DNA of 64,000 nt, taken from Propionicimonas paludicola. Its GTDB lineage: Bacteria; Actinomycetota; Actinomycetes; Propionibacteriales; Propionibacteriaceae. Below the pieces are notes generated by a model, which saw nothing but the letters and a program-made list of their open reading frames with translations, was not told where the DNA came from and did no database searches. Shown in pieces: positions 16,808 to 22,720 of the stretch. Position numbers and translations under genes: made by a program. The stretch spans positions 1,674,001 through 1,738,000 of the forward strand of contig NZ_PDJC01000001.1 in the NCBI RefSeq assembly GCF_002563675.1, in the 5' to 3' direction. The stretch's first letter is position 1, and each line of letters begins with the position of its first letter.

Positions 16808-20281
<3,474 letters not shown>

Positions 20282-20629
20282 GGTGAGGTCCTTCCACAAA
20301 GCCGGGACTACCGGTTTCGTTGCACGCAGAACGGCCCGAGTCAAGTACACGGGTCGTTGATGGCAATGAGCAAAGCGATAGCTTACCGAAATCGCTCGTT
20401 GATGGCAACTGGGTCGCTGGCTGGCCGTCGGCGCAGCGCAACCCTGCTCAACTCAGCACCAAGGATACTCCCGGACGGACACCACAAGGCCGGCGCACTT
20501 GCCAACTCGCGGGAGGGGTAGCCGCGGTATGTAACAAGGCACCGGCCTGTGGTGTTCTTCGTCCGACGCTTAGGGGGCGCGTCGACAGGGATAAGTCGAT
20601 CAGACTTGACAGCCTTTGTCAACTGCCAG
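20282..20629 (-). other. rpoB upstream region without a gene
   Basis: No coding gene is seen in these 348 bases. The region holds a candidate rpoB promoter (20380-20408), a 13-base direct repeat (TCGTTGATGGCAA at 20354-20366 and 20396-20408), and most of a cluster of TTGAC/GTCAA half-sites that runs into the end of the regulator gene (20605-20634). Confidence 0.6.
20380..20408 (-). promoter_or_regulatory. Candidate rpoB promoter
   Basis: On the minus strand TTGCCA (20408-20403) and TAAGCT (20385-20380) are separated by exactly 17 bases. Transcription would start near 20373 and give a leader of about 90 bases before the rpoB TTG. The -35 is part of a 13-base sequence repeated 42 bases downstream. 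Confidence 0.45.
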
Positions 20630-20634
20630 TCAAG
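20605..20634. promoter_or_regulatory. TTGAC/GTCAA half-site cluster between the regulator gene and rpoB
   Basis: TTGACA (20606-20611) and TGTCAA (20617-20622) form a perfect inverted repeat around 5 bases. A further GTCAAG lies at 20629-20634, overlapping the regulator stop codon. The half-sites resemble those of the palindrome in front of the small peptide gene (21905-21923). A minus-strand TTGACA (20622-20617) could also serve as a -35 for rpoB. Confidence 0.4.
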
Positions 20635-21874
20635 AACTTTCTTTCAACTCCGATGCCTGACGCCATGCGCGCAACGCAGACCGCAGGCGCCCCTCGTTCT
20701 CCAGGGCGATCGCCGCCTGCGCGTACTGCTCCCGGGCTAGTCCGACCTTGTTCAGCGCGGCGTAGGCGTTGGCCAGCACCAGCCTGGTCGAGCCGTGCGA
20801 CACGTCCGGAGCGCCCAGCGCGGGATCGGCCAGGACCTCCTCCATGAGCTCGGCCGCCCGTTGCGGCTCGCCGGTGGCCAAGGCGAGCTTGGCCTCGGCC
20901 TGGCGCAGTTCGGCGAGGTCGTGCTTGTTGCCGACCAGGCTCAGCCCCACCGAGGCGTTCTGCAGCATCTGCGGCACTCCATCCAGGAAGCCGGCGTCCA
21001 CCTTCGCCTCCGCGAAGGTGCGCTGAAGGCGTAGCCAGAGCCGAACATCGCGTCGAGAGTCGAGGAGGGCAAGCGCCTTCTCGAAGTGGGGAACGCCTGT
21101 GTCGGGCTCACCGGCGGCGATCGCCACCGCACCGAGGGTCCACTCCACCATGCCCTTGGCGTGATCGGAGGACAGTTCCGGCTCCACGGCCTCCAGCCGG
21201 TCCAGATACGGCCGGCTCTCGATCAGCGAGTGTCCAGCCTCGGTCATGGCGCTGACGAGCGCCATCAGCGCGTCAGAGAGCACCACCGGCGGCGCGGCGC
21301 TGGCCGCCTCGACGGCACGGGCCGCGAAGGCCACCGCCCAACCCAGCCGGTCCGCGGAGCGGTGAGCGAACGAGGCCAGGCTCAGCGCCTGGGCCCGCGC
21401 CACCGGCAACCGTCCACCGGTCTCATGCTCGGCCAGCTGCTCTGCCAGCTCGGCGGCCTCGGGGAAGTTGCCGGAGGCGAAGTTGGCCTGGGCAAGCACA
21501 TACAGCGCTTCCCAATGCCGTCCTTGATCGTGGGTGCGCTCGGCGATCTCGACCGCTCGAGTCGCGTACTTGATCGCGCCGGCCCAGTCCCGCTCGGACC
21601 ACGCTCGCTCGGCGAGCAGCAAGTCCTCCATGGCACTGCTGGGCTGATCACTGACCTGGCCGCTCGAGGTCACTCCCCACTCCTCGGGAGGAATCCCGAG
21701 CTGGCGGCAGAGGAACTCGATGACTTCCGGGGTTGCCGACCGACGCCCACTCTCCAGGTGGGAGATGTAGCTGCCGGTGTACTTGTCCCCGGCGAGCTCG
21801 GCTTGGGACCAACCCTTGCGCTTACGTGCCTGCCGGAGCAGAACGCCGAATTGCACAGCGTTGGACGCGTCCAT
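20630..21874 (-). CDS. XRE-family regulator with TPR-like sensor domain
   Basis: This 414-residue protein has an N-terminal Cro/C1-type helix-turn-helix (residues 5-60; recognition helix near SYISHLESGRR, 35-45), then about 330 residues of alternating helices rich in Ala, Leu and Glu (80-410) that look like tetratricopeptide repeats. That architecture is shared by the peptide-sensing RRNPP regulators (PlcR, NprR, Rgg, AimR) and by other helical-repeat XRE regulators. I chose the ATG at 21874 because GGAGGT sits 4 bases upstream; the frame extends to 21931 without such a site. It is divergent from a gene for a small exported-looking peptide, with a perfect palindrome between them. Ligand and targets are unproven. 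Confidence 0.85.
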   Translation of the reverse strand: MDASNAVQFGVLLRQARKRKGWSQAELAGDKYTGSYISHLESGRRSATPEVIEFLCRQLGIPPEEWGVTSSGQVSDQPSSAMEDLLLAERAWSERDWAGAIKYATRAVEIAERTHDQGRHWEALYVLAQANFASGNFPEAAELAEQLAEHETGGRLPVARAQALSLASFAHRSADRLGWAVAFAARAVEAASAAPPVVLSDALMALVSAMTEAGHSLIESRPYLDRLEAVEPELSSDHAKGMVEWTLGAVAIAAGEPDTGVPHFEKALALLDSRRDVRLWLRLQRTFAEAKVDAGFLDGVPQMLQNASVGLSLVGNKHDLAELRQAEAKLALATGEPQRAAELMEEVLADPALGAPDVSHGSTRLVLANAYAALNKVGLAREQYAQAAIALENEGRLRSALRAWRQASELKESS

Positions 21875-21904
21875 TCGACCTCCGATCTCCAACTCGACAG
21901 GAAC

Positions 21905-21923
21905 CTTGTCAAATCTTGACAAG
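21905..21923. promoter_or_regulatory. Perfect palindrome, likely operator of the XRE-TPR regulator
   Basis: CTTGTCAA (21905-21912) and TTGACAAG (21916-21923) form a perfect 8-base inverted repeat with a 3-base spacer. Each arm holds a TTGACA, one per strand. The plus-strand copy is the -35 of the peptide gene. A bound dimer would occlude or contact this promoter, so autoregulation of the divergent pair is likely. Confidence 0.6.
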
Positions 21924-21943
21924 CTAGTCAACTAGTCTGTACT
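21916..21943 (+). promoter_or_regulatory. Promoter of the small peptide gene
   Basis: A consensus -35 TTGACA (21916-21921) and a TGTACT -10 (21938-21943) are separated by 16 bases. The spacer contains a second palindrome, CTAGT-CA-ACTAG (21924-21935). Transcription would start near 21950, giving a leader of about 29 bases with an AAGGGG ribosome site at 21967-21972. Confidence 0.6.
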
Positions 21944-21978
21944 CTTCCTTTAAGTAATCCTCAGGGAAGGGGCCCCAG

Positions 21979-22137
21979 ATGGGTATCGTTCGGAAGATCG
22001 TCGCAGCAGTTGCAGTCGCTGGCGCACTGGCGGTTCTGCCGCTCAGCGTCGTCTCCAGTGATAACGCCGGTGGCCGCATCGGTGGCGGCACCACCGTCTC
22101 CACCAATGGCCAGGGCAACTGGCCCCAGAAGGGCTGA
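21979..22137 (+). CDS. Small exported-looking peptide, candidate signal for the adjacent regulator
   Basis: This 52-residue reading frame starts at ATG 21979, 6 bases after AAGGGG, and ends at TGA 22135-22137. It opens MGIVRK (basic), followed by a hydrophobic run of about 19 residues (IVAAVAVAGA to LSVV), then a polar Gly/Thr/Asn-rich tail ending NGQGNWPQKG. That is the plan of a pro-peptide: Sec signal plus a short secreted C-terminus. About 73 percent of third positions are G or C, a little lower than nearby genes. It has its own promoter and a strong terminator. I recognise no family. The role as a signalling peptide is inferred from the divergent XRE-TPR gene; a small membrane protein is the alternative. 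Confidence 0.7.
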   Translation: MGIVRKIVAAVAVAGALAVLPLSVVSSDNAGGRIGGGTTVSTNGQGNWPQKG

Positions 22138-22190
22138 CGCTCCCTTCTCCACACAGACTTGATCAACTGAAAACCCACCCCCAGTAAGTC

Positions 22191-22225
22191 AGAAGGGCGA
22201 CAACTCCTCGAGTTGTCGCCCTTCT
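22191..22225. terminator. Terminator of the small peptide gene
   Basis: AGAAGGGCGACAACT (22191-22205) and its exact complement (22211-22225) form a 15-base-pair stem with a 5-base loop. It lies 54 bases after the peptide stop, and may also stop any transcript reading through from rplL. Confidence 0.8.
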
Positions 22226-22263
22226 GCTTGCCCCGATCAGCCACAGAGGCTGTCCGGATATGC

Positions 22264-22299
22264 CACTGGCGGCAGCCCCGCGAGGGACTGCCGCCAGTG
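22264..22299 (-). terminator. Terminator after rplL
   Basis: CACTGGCGGCAG (22264-22275) and its exact complement (22288-22299) make a 12-base-pair stem with a 12-base loop, about 30 bases after the rplL stop on the minus strand. No long T run follows. It separates the rplJL unit from the regulator and rpoBC. Confidence 0.65.
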
Positions 22300-22327
22300 A
22301 AGTGTTTCCAGGCTGGAGCCTAGAGCG

Positions 22328-22720
22328 TCACTTGATGGTGACAGCGGCGCCGGCGGCCTCGAGGGCCTCCTTGGCCTTGGCGGCCACGTCGCGGGCAACC
22401 TTCTCCAGCACCGGCTTCGGAGCGGCCTCGACCAGGTCCTTGGCCTCCTTCAGGCCCAGGTTGGTGAGAGCGCGCACCTCCTTGATGACCTGGATCTTCT
22501 TGTCGCCAGCGGAGTCGAGGATCACGTCGACCTCGTTGCTGACCTCTTCCTCAGCAGCGGCCTCGCCGGCAGCGGCCGGGGCGGCAGCGGCGGCCACGGC
22601 CACCGGAGCGGCAGCGGTGACACCGAAGGTGTCCTCGAACAGCTTCACGAACTCGGAGAGCTCGATCAGGGTCATCTCCTTGAATGCCTCAAGGAGCTCG
22701 TCAGTGGTGAGCTTTGCCAT
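22328..22720 (-). CDS. rplL: 50S ribosomal protein L7/L12
   Basis: This 130-residue stalk protein recruits translational GTPases. It has the N-terminal dimerisation region ([26 protein letters not shown]), an Ala-rich hinge ([18 protein letters not shown]), and the C-terminal domain with [25 protein letters not shown] shown in part. It follows rplJ by 17 bases with an AAGGAA site. A strong hairpin lies downstream, so in this genome the stalk operon appears to end before rpoB. Confidence 0.97.

Follow-up and report, generated by a model that had tools for sequence, protein, structure and literature searches.

A candidate RRNPP-like peptide-signaling cassette with a structured RNA between rplL and rpoB of Propionicimonas paludicola

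Known Peptide-Signaling Systems

In the RRNPP(A) pairs of the Firmicutes (Rap, Rgg, NprR, PlcR and PrgX, with ComR and AimR as further members), a TPR receptor, in several cases with an XRE helix-turn-helix (HTH), is encoded beside a small signal-bearing pro-peptide gene, and the pro-peptide contains a conserved short core. The agr system of Staphylococcus combines a cyclic peptide with a membrane histidine kinase, and its output includes the regulatory RNA RNAIII, whose C-rich loops pair with Shine-Dalgarno sequences. Loops with runs of C also occur in the actinobacterial 6C RNA (RF01066), a small RNA of two hairpins. The locus described here shares the receptor architecture, the adjacent pro-peptide gene and the conserved short core with the RRNPP(A) pairs, but differs in being actinobacterial, in its 414-aa receptor and Trp-Pro core, and in the structured C-rich RNA candidate, preceded by another copy of the box found at the peptide promoter; moreover, PDB profiles of known members match its regulator at the HTH only. 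With agr it would have in common a peptide signal and an output that includes a regulatory RNA with C-rich loops, whereas the cyclic peptide and the membrane histidine kinase set agr apart and RNAIII is far longer. The two hairpins with C-run loops recall the 6C RNA, but the RNA candidate region has no 6C match.

According to excerpts of two papers, quorum sensing in which intracellular TPR receptors read peptides has been described for Firmicutes (PMC10075063, PMC13220807), and the RRNPP_detector survey covered Firmicutes and viruses (PMC10075063). Several pheromone copies per precursor are mentioned for two Bacillus phage Rap systems in an excerpt of a third (PMC11343458). Actinobacterial signals are characterized in the first two excerpts as typically small molecules (PMC10075063, PMC13220807), the 2026 review naming gamma-butyrolactones for Streptomyces (PMC13220807). 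Neither an actinobacterial RRNPP pair nor a WP peptide was found among the matches listed for titles and abstracts of open PMC texts (preprints excluded). A syntenic cassette of peptide, receptor and RNA in the Propionibacteriaceae, together with the related pairs in Streptomyces, would give a phylum of antibiotic producers a signal family that is genetically encoded and easily synthesized.

Genomic Setting of the Cassette

The window, i.e., the whole stretch of 64,000 nucleotides that was analyzed, belongs to a genome consisting of one contig of 3.26 Mb. Between the core genes rplL (22328..22720, minus strand, assigned by ORF and neighbor reading) and rpoB (16808..20281, minus strand; the start at 20281 is proposed within an ORF spanning 16808–20350) lies a cassette of a regulator gene, a divergent peptide ORF and a structured RNA candidate. 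We regard it as probable that these constitute a self-contained peptide-signaling cassette, in which a secreted and re-imported peptide would be sensed by a TPR receptor that in turn governs the peptide gene as well as a small RNA. The RRNPP-like peptide-signaling interpretation, put forward in an earlier sequence-only reading of this DNA, is supported by the comparisons below; the operator boxes, the RNA and the wide distribution go beyond that reading. Membership in RRNPP is not claimed, because no homology beyond the HTH was found and peptide binding is a proposal; "RRNPP-like" refers to the presumed way of working.

The module is flanked by rplL and/or rpoB in 15 of 15 further loci of the genus and in 16 of 19 other loci of the family. 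The three loci outside this count are L060, whose contig is too short to judge, and those of two g25 genomes, which carry the module elsewhere. In the latter (L212 and L213), the peptide (ending GDHGIWP or GDHGVWP), box 1 (see below) and the receptor are located away from rplL–rpoB and, as judged by eye, 5' of a lipoprotein-like ORF; box 2 is absent. Ten genomes without the regulator were queried for the rplL–rpoB gap, and four of them (G016, G013, G032, and G039) had both flanks readable. Their gaps measure 333–481 nt and contain no box (0/4), the peptide search (E ≤ 0.01) yielded no match in these genomes, and a CCTCCC motif, which recurs in the RNA candidate, is present in one gap (G032). 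A phage origin of the cassette was considered and rejected, as the window regulator matches no phage record and its PHROGs match covers the HTH only.

The Candidate Receptor

The regulator gene (20630..21874, minus strand; ATG at 21874, stop at 20630) encodes a protein of 414 aa, which we propose to be an intracellular peptide receptor and repressor. Pfam assigns HTH_31 (7.8e-13), HTH_3, TPR_2 (5.7e-9), and TPR_19 to it, and its AlphaFold2 model (mean pLDDT 91.5) is all-helical C-terminal to the HTH, where about eight TPR-like helix pairs appear to be present by eye. These results bear out the earlier description of a 414-residue protein that joins a Cro/C1-type HTH to a TPR-like region, and likewise the comparison of this architecture, an XRE-type HTH followed by a C-terminal TPR solenoid, to that of RRNPP proteins. 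Among the best 50 of 72 Foldseek matches (E ≤ 0.001), Rap was the only solved RRNPP protein (Rap-CSF 4gyo with TM scores of 0.53/0.60; RapH 3q15 also present), and PlcR, Rgg, and PrgX were absent; other TPR proteins ranked higher, with LGN and MalT as the top matches. PDB profile searches revealed no sequence homology to known RRNPP members beyond the HTH, ComR being matched at positions 4–63 and 2–60 and PlcR at 3–60. Chain 4yv6, which we take to be Rgg, was matched at profile positions 4–74 and 3–101.

Regulator homologs were found in 23 of 77 genomes at E ≤ 1e-10 and in 35 of 198 genomes of the family at E ≤ 1e-20 (own genome included in both counts). The 14 remaining genomes of the genus contained no match at E ≤ 1e-10, and the own genome contained no second match at E ≤ 0.001. 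In G004 (L016/L024/L058), the regulator is split across two frames, possibly owing to an assembly error.

The Peptide Gene and its Conservation

Divergently from the regulator, a 52-aa pro-peptide is encoded at 21979..22137 on the plus strand (ATG at 21979, stop ending at 22137), an assignment based on the ORF itself, relatives, dN/dS and chance controls. It has a basic start and a hydrophobic run, resembling an export signal, and a tail ending in NGQGNWPQKG, as the sequence-only reading had given it; GQGNWP is its C-terminal core. Coding is indicated by the comparison with the nearest locus, L041, whose regulator is 93% identical (dN 0.018, dS 0.423); over 120 pairs within the genus, the median dN/dS was 0.54. 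An ORF with a signal-like start and a W[PYK] core occurred in none of 274 other stretches of the window (450 nt, both strands counted), and a looser control that allowed TTG starts hit 2 of 300 overlapping 800-nt stretches, both containing the same ORF. The peptide search matched at E ≤ 0.01 in 14 of the 77 genomes, own included. A weak second match (E 0.004) with one internal stop lies on a different contig in L040 (G018:C22:73461-73589) and could be a decayed paralog or a chance hit.

By direct reading, the short ORF is present and divergent beside the regulator in 15 of 15 relatives of the same genus that possess the regulator, and all 19 other family genomes with the regulator carry it, one of them in frameshifted form. 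The sequence-only reading had named absence or a frameshift of the ORF next to orthologous regulators as grounds for rejecting it, and the outcome does not refute it. In the 18 intact cases outside the genus, the divergent ORF combines a signal-like start with a W-containing tail. The exception, Micropruina SSC1 (L059/L088, G177), derives from an assembly of 80% completeness and may reflect an assembly error. Under a fixed test of orientation, a peptide was scored on the divergent side in 33 of 50 loci (own included) vs. 3 of 150 for the three other orientations; the misses include real peptides (L006, L092, and L093, with the cores SYP, HWT or HWG) as well as L084, with a coordinate offset, and the frameshifted L088.

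Comparison of the 16 peptides of the genus shows a retained signal segment and a retained core GQG[NSG][WY]P, with a linker of variable length between loci. Elsewhere in the family the cores are GxGxWP-like: GG[FY]G[DE]WPVS or GGEGWWPQ in Micropruina, GGG[ED]G[NSH]W immediately after AQA in g7, SEGMWP in Brooklawnia, HG[IV]WP in g25, three copies of GEGIWY in Desertihabitans, three of AGGGIWYK in Auraticoccus, five of AGGGIWPK in G034, and two related copies, one of them without W, in g31; the loosest case is L020/L087, which ends in LGPWP. The core directly follows the signal in one genus and occupies the extreme C-terminus in others, and some genera have two to five copies. Such copies were chosen by protein pattern and by construction show zero amino-acid differences; at the DNA level, synonymous differences separate them in 10 of 12 comparable precursors, the other two sets being DNA-identical (one set, L182, was not comparable). 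A conserved core, a variable linker and repeated cores are as expected for a mature signal. The cores are specific to clades, so vertical descent alone would yield a co-divergence of core and TPR domain.

Two other functions of the peptide have to be weighed against that of a signal. Firstly, it could be a secreted effector, such as a bacteriocin-like product or a surface or envelope ligand, whose expression the XRE-TPR protein regulates in response to something else. A small signal-bearing ORF with a short conserved core fits this explanation too, but the conserved core is about six residues long and recurs in short repeats, no extra gene as large as one for an immunity or modification enzyme is visible by eye among rplL, peptide, regulator, and rpoB in the loci inspected, and the pairing of peptide with TPR regulator persists from genus to genus, and at some loci of Streptomyces, despite changing neighbors. 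We therefore hold an effector function to be improbable. Secondly, a short hydrophobic peptide adjoining an XRE protein is reminiscent of a small membrane toxin restrained by an antitoxin-like repressor, the hydrophobic segment is itself conserved within the genus, and the HTH has weak similarity to Y4mF-family antitoxins (TIGR03070, 27.5 bits vs. a cut-off of 71.65). A membrane toxin would not, however, need to conserve a soluble tail core, let alone repeat it as some genera do, its partner here is a TPR protein of 414 aa, and most members of the family carry the module at the same chromosomal site. A toxin of this type thus appears very improbable, and an identification as a toxin–antitoxin pair, for which the HTH similarity is sub-threshold only, was rejected.

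Operator Boxes and Promoters

A candidate site of the regulator, box 1 (TTGACAAGCTAGTCAA, 21916..21931, plus strand), has the form TTGACA-N5-GTCAA and covers the −35 region of the peptide promoter, its TTGACA being the −35 hexamer itself. No other TTGAC-N6-GTCAA occurs in the window, 100 shuffles yielded none, and TTGACANNNNNGTCAA occurs in the own genome at the box 1 site only. The candidate box 2 (TTGACAAAGGCTGTCAA, 20606..20622, minus strand), with N7 between the half sites, starts 8 nt past the regulator stop and takes the −35 position of the promoter proposed for the RNA. Comparison across the family points to both boxes as conserved elements: of 32 relatives' loci, 30 have TTGAC-N(4–9)-GTCAA no more than 320 nt upstream of the regulator, and 25 of 31 have it no more than 105 nt 3' of the regulator stop, vs. 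about 0.001 per shuffled locus in either case, the shuffle being an approximate one that permuted dinucleotide blocks. The upstream box is missed in L061 and L081, where variant spacing is seen by eye, and the downstream box in L060, L061, L062, L081, L082, and L091. The arrangement at the peptide promoter, with TTGACA serving as the −35 hexamer and the half sites extending over the spacer, suggests repression.

A consensus-like promoter and a strong terminator had been claimed for the peptide gene from sequence alone; the −10 and the terminator prove weaker than that. The −35 TTGACA (21916–21921) is perfect, but the −10-like TACTCT (21940..21945, plus strand, read from sequence 18 nt past TTGACA) matches the consensus at three of six positions with an 18-nt spacer, and a consensus scan of 20400–22330 reported no promoter; in most relatives, a hexamer starting with TA is found 17–18 nt past TTGACA. 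Between the peptide gene and rplL, a perfect 17-bp hairpin (22190..22226, read from sequence) might act as a bidirectional terminator, but it lacks a T run, the same scan gave no T-tailed terminator, and the element is weaker than claimed. Overlapping box 1, the sequence also contains a perfect palindrome, CTTGTCAAATCTTGACAAG (21905..21923, read from sequence), which recurs as variants in the genus. Without mismatch, TGTCAAATNTTGACA occurs once in the genome, at this palindrome, and allowing two mismatches adds one other site. The palindrome may be a further regulator site, perhaps for the regulator's own promoter.

A wide direct regulon was rejected: TTGACANNNNNGTCAA gives only box 1 in the own genome, and much of the forward excess in other genomes is the cassette's own box 1 (in 30 other genomes, forward counts of 0–5 vs. 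0–1 in the backward control, and reverse counts of 0–2 vs. 0–3). Additional TTGACA-N5-GTCAA sites off the cassette (L107, L110, L112, L113, L115, L118, L119, and L121) were seen in G008, G009, G010, and G014, the last of which has no regulator match; they are probably due to chance, additional targets being possible.

A Structured RNA Candidate

The regulator gene is followed, in this order, by box 2, a −10-like hexamer 17 nt on, and a two-hairpin element. The element (20476..20593, minus strand) was defined by covariation, fold z-score and a covariance model, and the window copy has a fold z of −6.1. Hairpin 1 has the predicted loop GCCCCCUAA, and the long hairpin 2 the predicted loop CUACCCCUC; the CCUCCC run extends two bases into the stem of hairpin 2 and is only partly unpaired in the fold predicted for the window. 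Comparison of 20 loci by RNAalifold gave 19 pairs, nine of them with compensatory changes. Paired cells make up 95%, 53 cells have two-sided changes vs. 17.2 in shuffled alignments (0/500 shuffles), and the covariation score is 0.420 vs. 0.236 (0/500). Two measures are weaker, pairs with two-sided change being equalled in 13 of 500 shuffles and further pair types in 24 of 500. Hairpin 1 has no two-sided change, and the covariation thus resides in hairpin 2. CCTCCC is present in all 20 sequences, and CCCCC within the first 40 bases in 19 of them.

The covariance model R1 matches 22 of 197 family genomes, in each case adjoining the regulator (16 of the genus, five Micropruina, and one g31). All 22 carry the regulator, which points to co-inheritance; 20 of the 22 matches, including that at the window copy (6.1e-12), are training sequences, the exceptions being G004 (1.7e-20) and G186 (5.0e-5). 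No model match was obtained in 13 of the 35 genomes with a regulator. Some of these have C-rich hairpins at the same place, visible by eye in g7, Brooklawnia (L062), G034 (L081) and L087, and those of L081, L062, and L087, which differ in sequence, are possibly diverged versions that the model missed. In the g25 genomes, the peptide and box 1 occur at another place and box 2 is lacking, so the RNA is not obligatory for the module. The C-rich loops had pointed to the 6C RNA, an identification that was rejected: Rfam gave no match over the RNA candidate in the window or in related loci, and the best score of the 6C model in the own genome (26.9 vs. a cut-off of 47 bits) lies elsewhere. All other Rfam matches were below the gathering score, two in the window over the peptide gene and six in related loci, none of them over the RNA.

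The element is located upstream of rpoB and oriented like it, and the GC-rich stem of hairpin 2 is very stable. It might therefore be the terminator of the regulator gene, or a 5' leader that links peptide sensing to rpoBC expression, rather than a trans-acting small RNA. A plain terminator would not be expected to keep CCTCCC in 20 of 20 sequences while stem 2 covaries, and the box and the −10-like hexamer 5' of the RNA argue against this alternative. Furthermore, just 5' of rpoB there is a conserved promoter-like stretch of its own, seen by eye also at rplL–rpoB gaps without the module, and the distance from regulator to rpoB varies from 262 to 751 nt across loci. A role as terminator or leader is thus rather unlikely, although less so than the effector function discussed above.

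Proposed Signaling Mechanism

Genome comparison establishes the gene pair, the conservation of the core, the boxes, the RNA structure and the co-inheritance. For the preferred reading, a signaling cassette with a small RNA as one output, we infer the following sequence of events. The 52-aa precursor would be exported via its signal sequence and cut outside the cell, releasing a short peptide around GQGNWP that would return through an oligopeptide permease and bind the regulator's TPR solenoid. Without peptide, the regulator would occupy the TTGACA-N-GTCAA boxes, which cover the −35 and spacer both at the peptide promoter and at a second promoter located behind the regulator gene, and would repress the two promoters. 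Binding of the peptide would free both promoters, resulting in positive feedback on the peptide and in a burst of an RNA with a predicted length of about 110–120 nt, whose two C-rich loops might pair with Shine-Dalgarno sequences and thereby repress target mRNAs. The own genome encodes six Opp-type binding proteins (PF00496), a common feature that was also found in 11 of 14 control genomes. The exact peptides, the operator, and the RNA are named here as testable items.

Relatives in Other Actinobacteria

Judged by sequence, related peptide–receptor pairs also exist in other actinobacteria, among them Streptomyces, where some lie on linear plasmids beside biosynthetic genes. The receptor was found at E ≤ 1e-25 in 18 of 394 genomes of the class (own included; four candidates per genome scored). 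At 10 of 22 other places, a signal peptide with a core of the WP type is encoded divergently from it, vs. 0 of 22 for each other orientation, with cores such as 3x GNWPDPM, 3x TVGGSWPT, SVGWWPH, TLDWPWI, 2x DIGWP, 2x DIEWP, and 3x DISWP. At the other 12 places, the fixed test yielded no divergent WP peptide, although weaker candidates, ending in IEWP and VDWP, are present at two of them. Within Streptomyces, the receptor is present at E ≤ 1e-60 in 52 of 295 genomes. A looser test found a divergent WP ORF within 1.5 kb in eight of 30 loci, which partly overlap the 22 places of the class-level search, and none within that distance in 22. In one Streptomyces locus (L194), an ORF with 4x DIGWP lies downstream instead, and two more Streptomyces ORFs in other orientations look like chance hits.

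Matches to the receptor also occur in 36 plasmid records (35 Streptomyces, one Kitasatospora). Six of ten plasmid loci examined have a WP peptide nearby, sometimes with other genes intervening, and all of these peptides are annotated as hypothetical proteins: 3x DIGWP on NBC_01006, two VEWP cores each on the plasmids of S. globisporus C-1027 and NBC_01178, NVEWP and VDVEWP on NBC_00239, NIGWP on ITFR-6, and an ORF ending in LDWP, whose signal is not clear, in S. finlayi. In the other four, no WP peptide was found.

We give even chances to a broader reading, in which the Actinomycetota own a large family of ribosomally made linear-peptide pheromones with a Trp-Pro core, each with a dedicated XRE-TPR receptor, and in which the receptor of one lineage, inside the ribosome–RNA polymerase cluster, drives a C-rich small RNA, like agr–RNAIII but by an unrelated route. 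The cores would then be GxGxWP for the Propionibacteriaceae, GNWPDP for a different family of the same class, and [DE][IV]xWP for Streptomyces and its linear plasmids. On the Streptomyces linear plasmids (L173–L182), the receptor relatives are often found beside genes for acyl carrier protein, NRPS, ketosynthase, metK, and SARP, as if the signal governed specialized metabolism.
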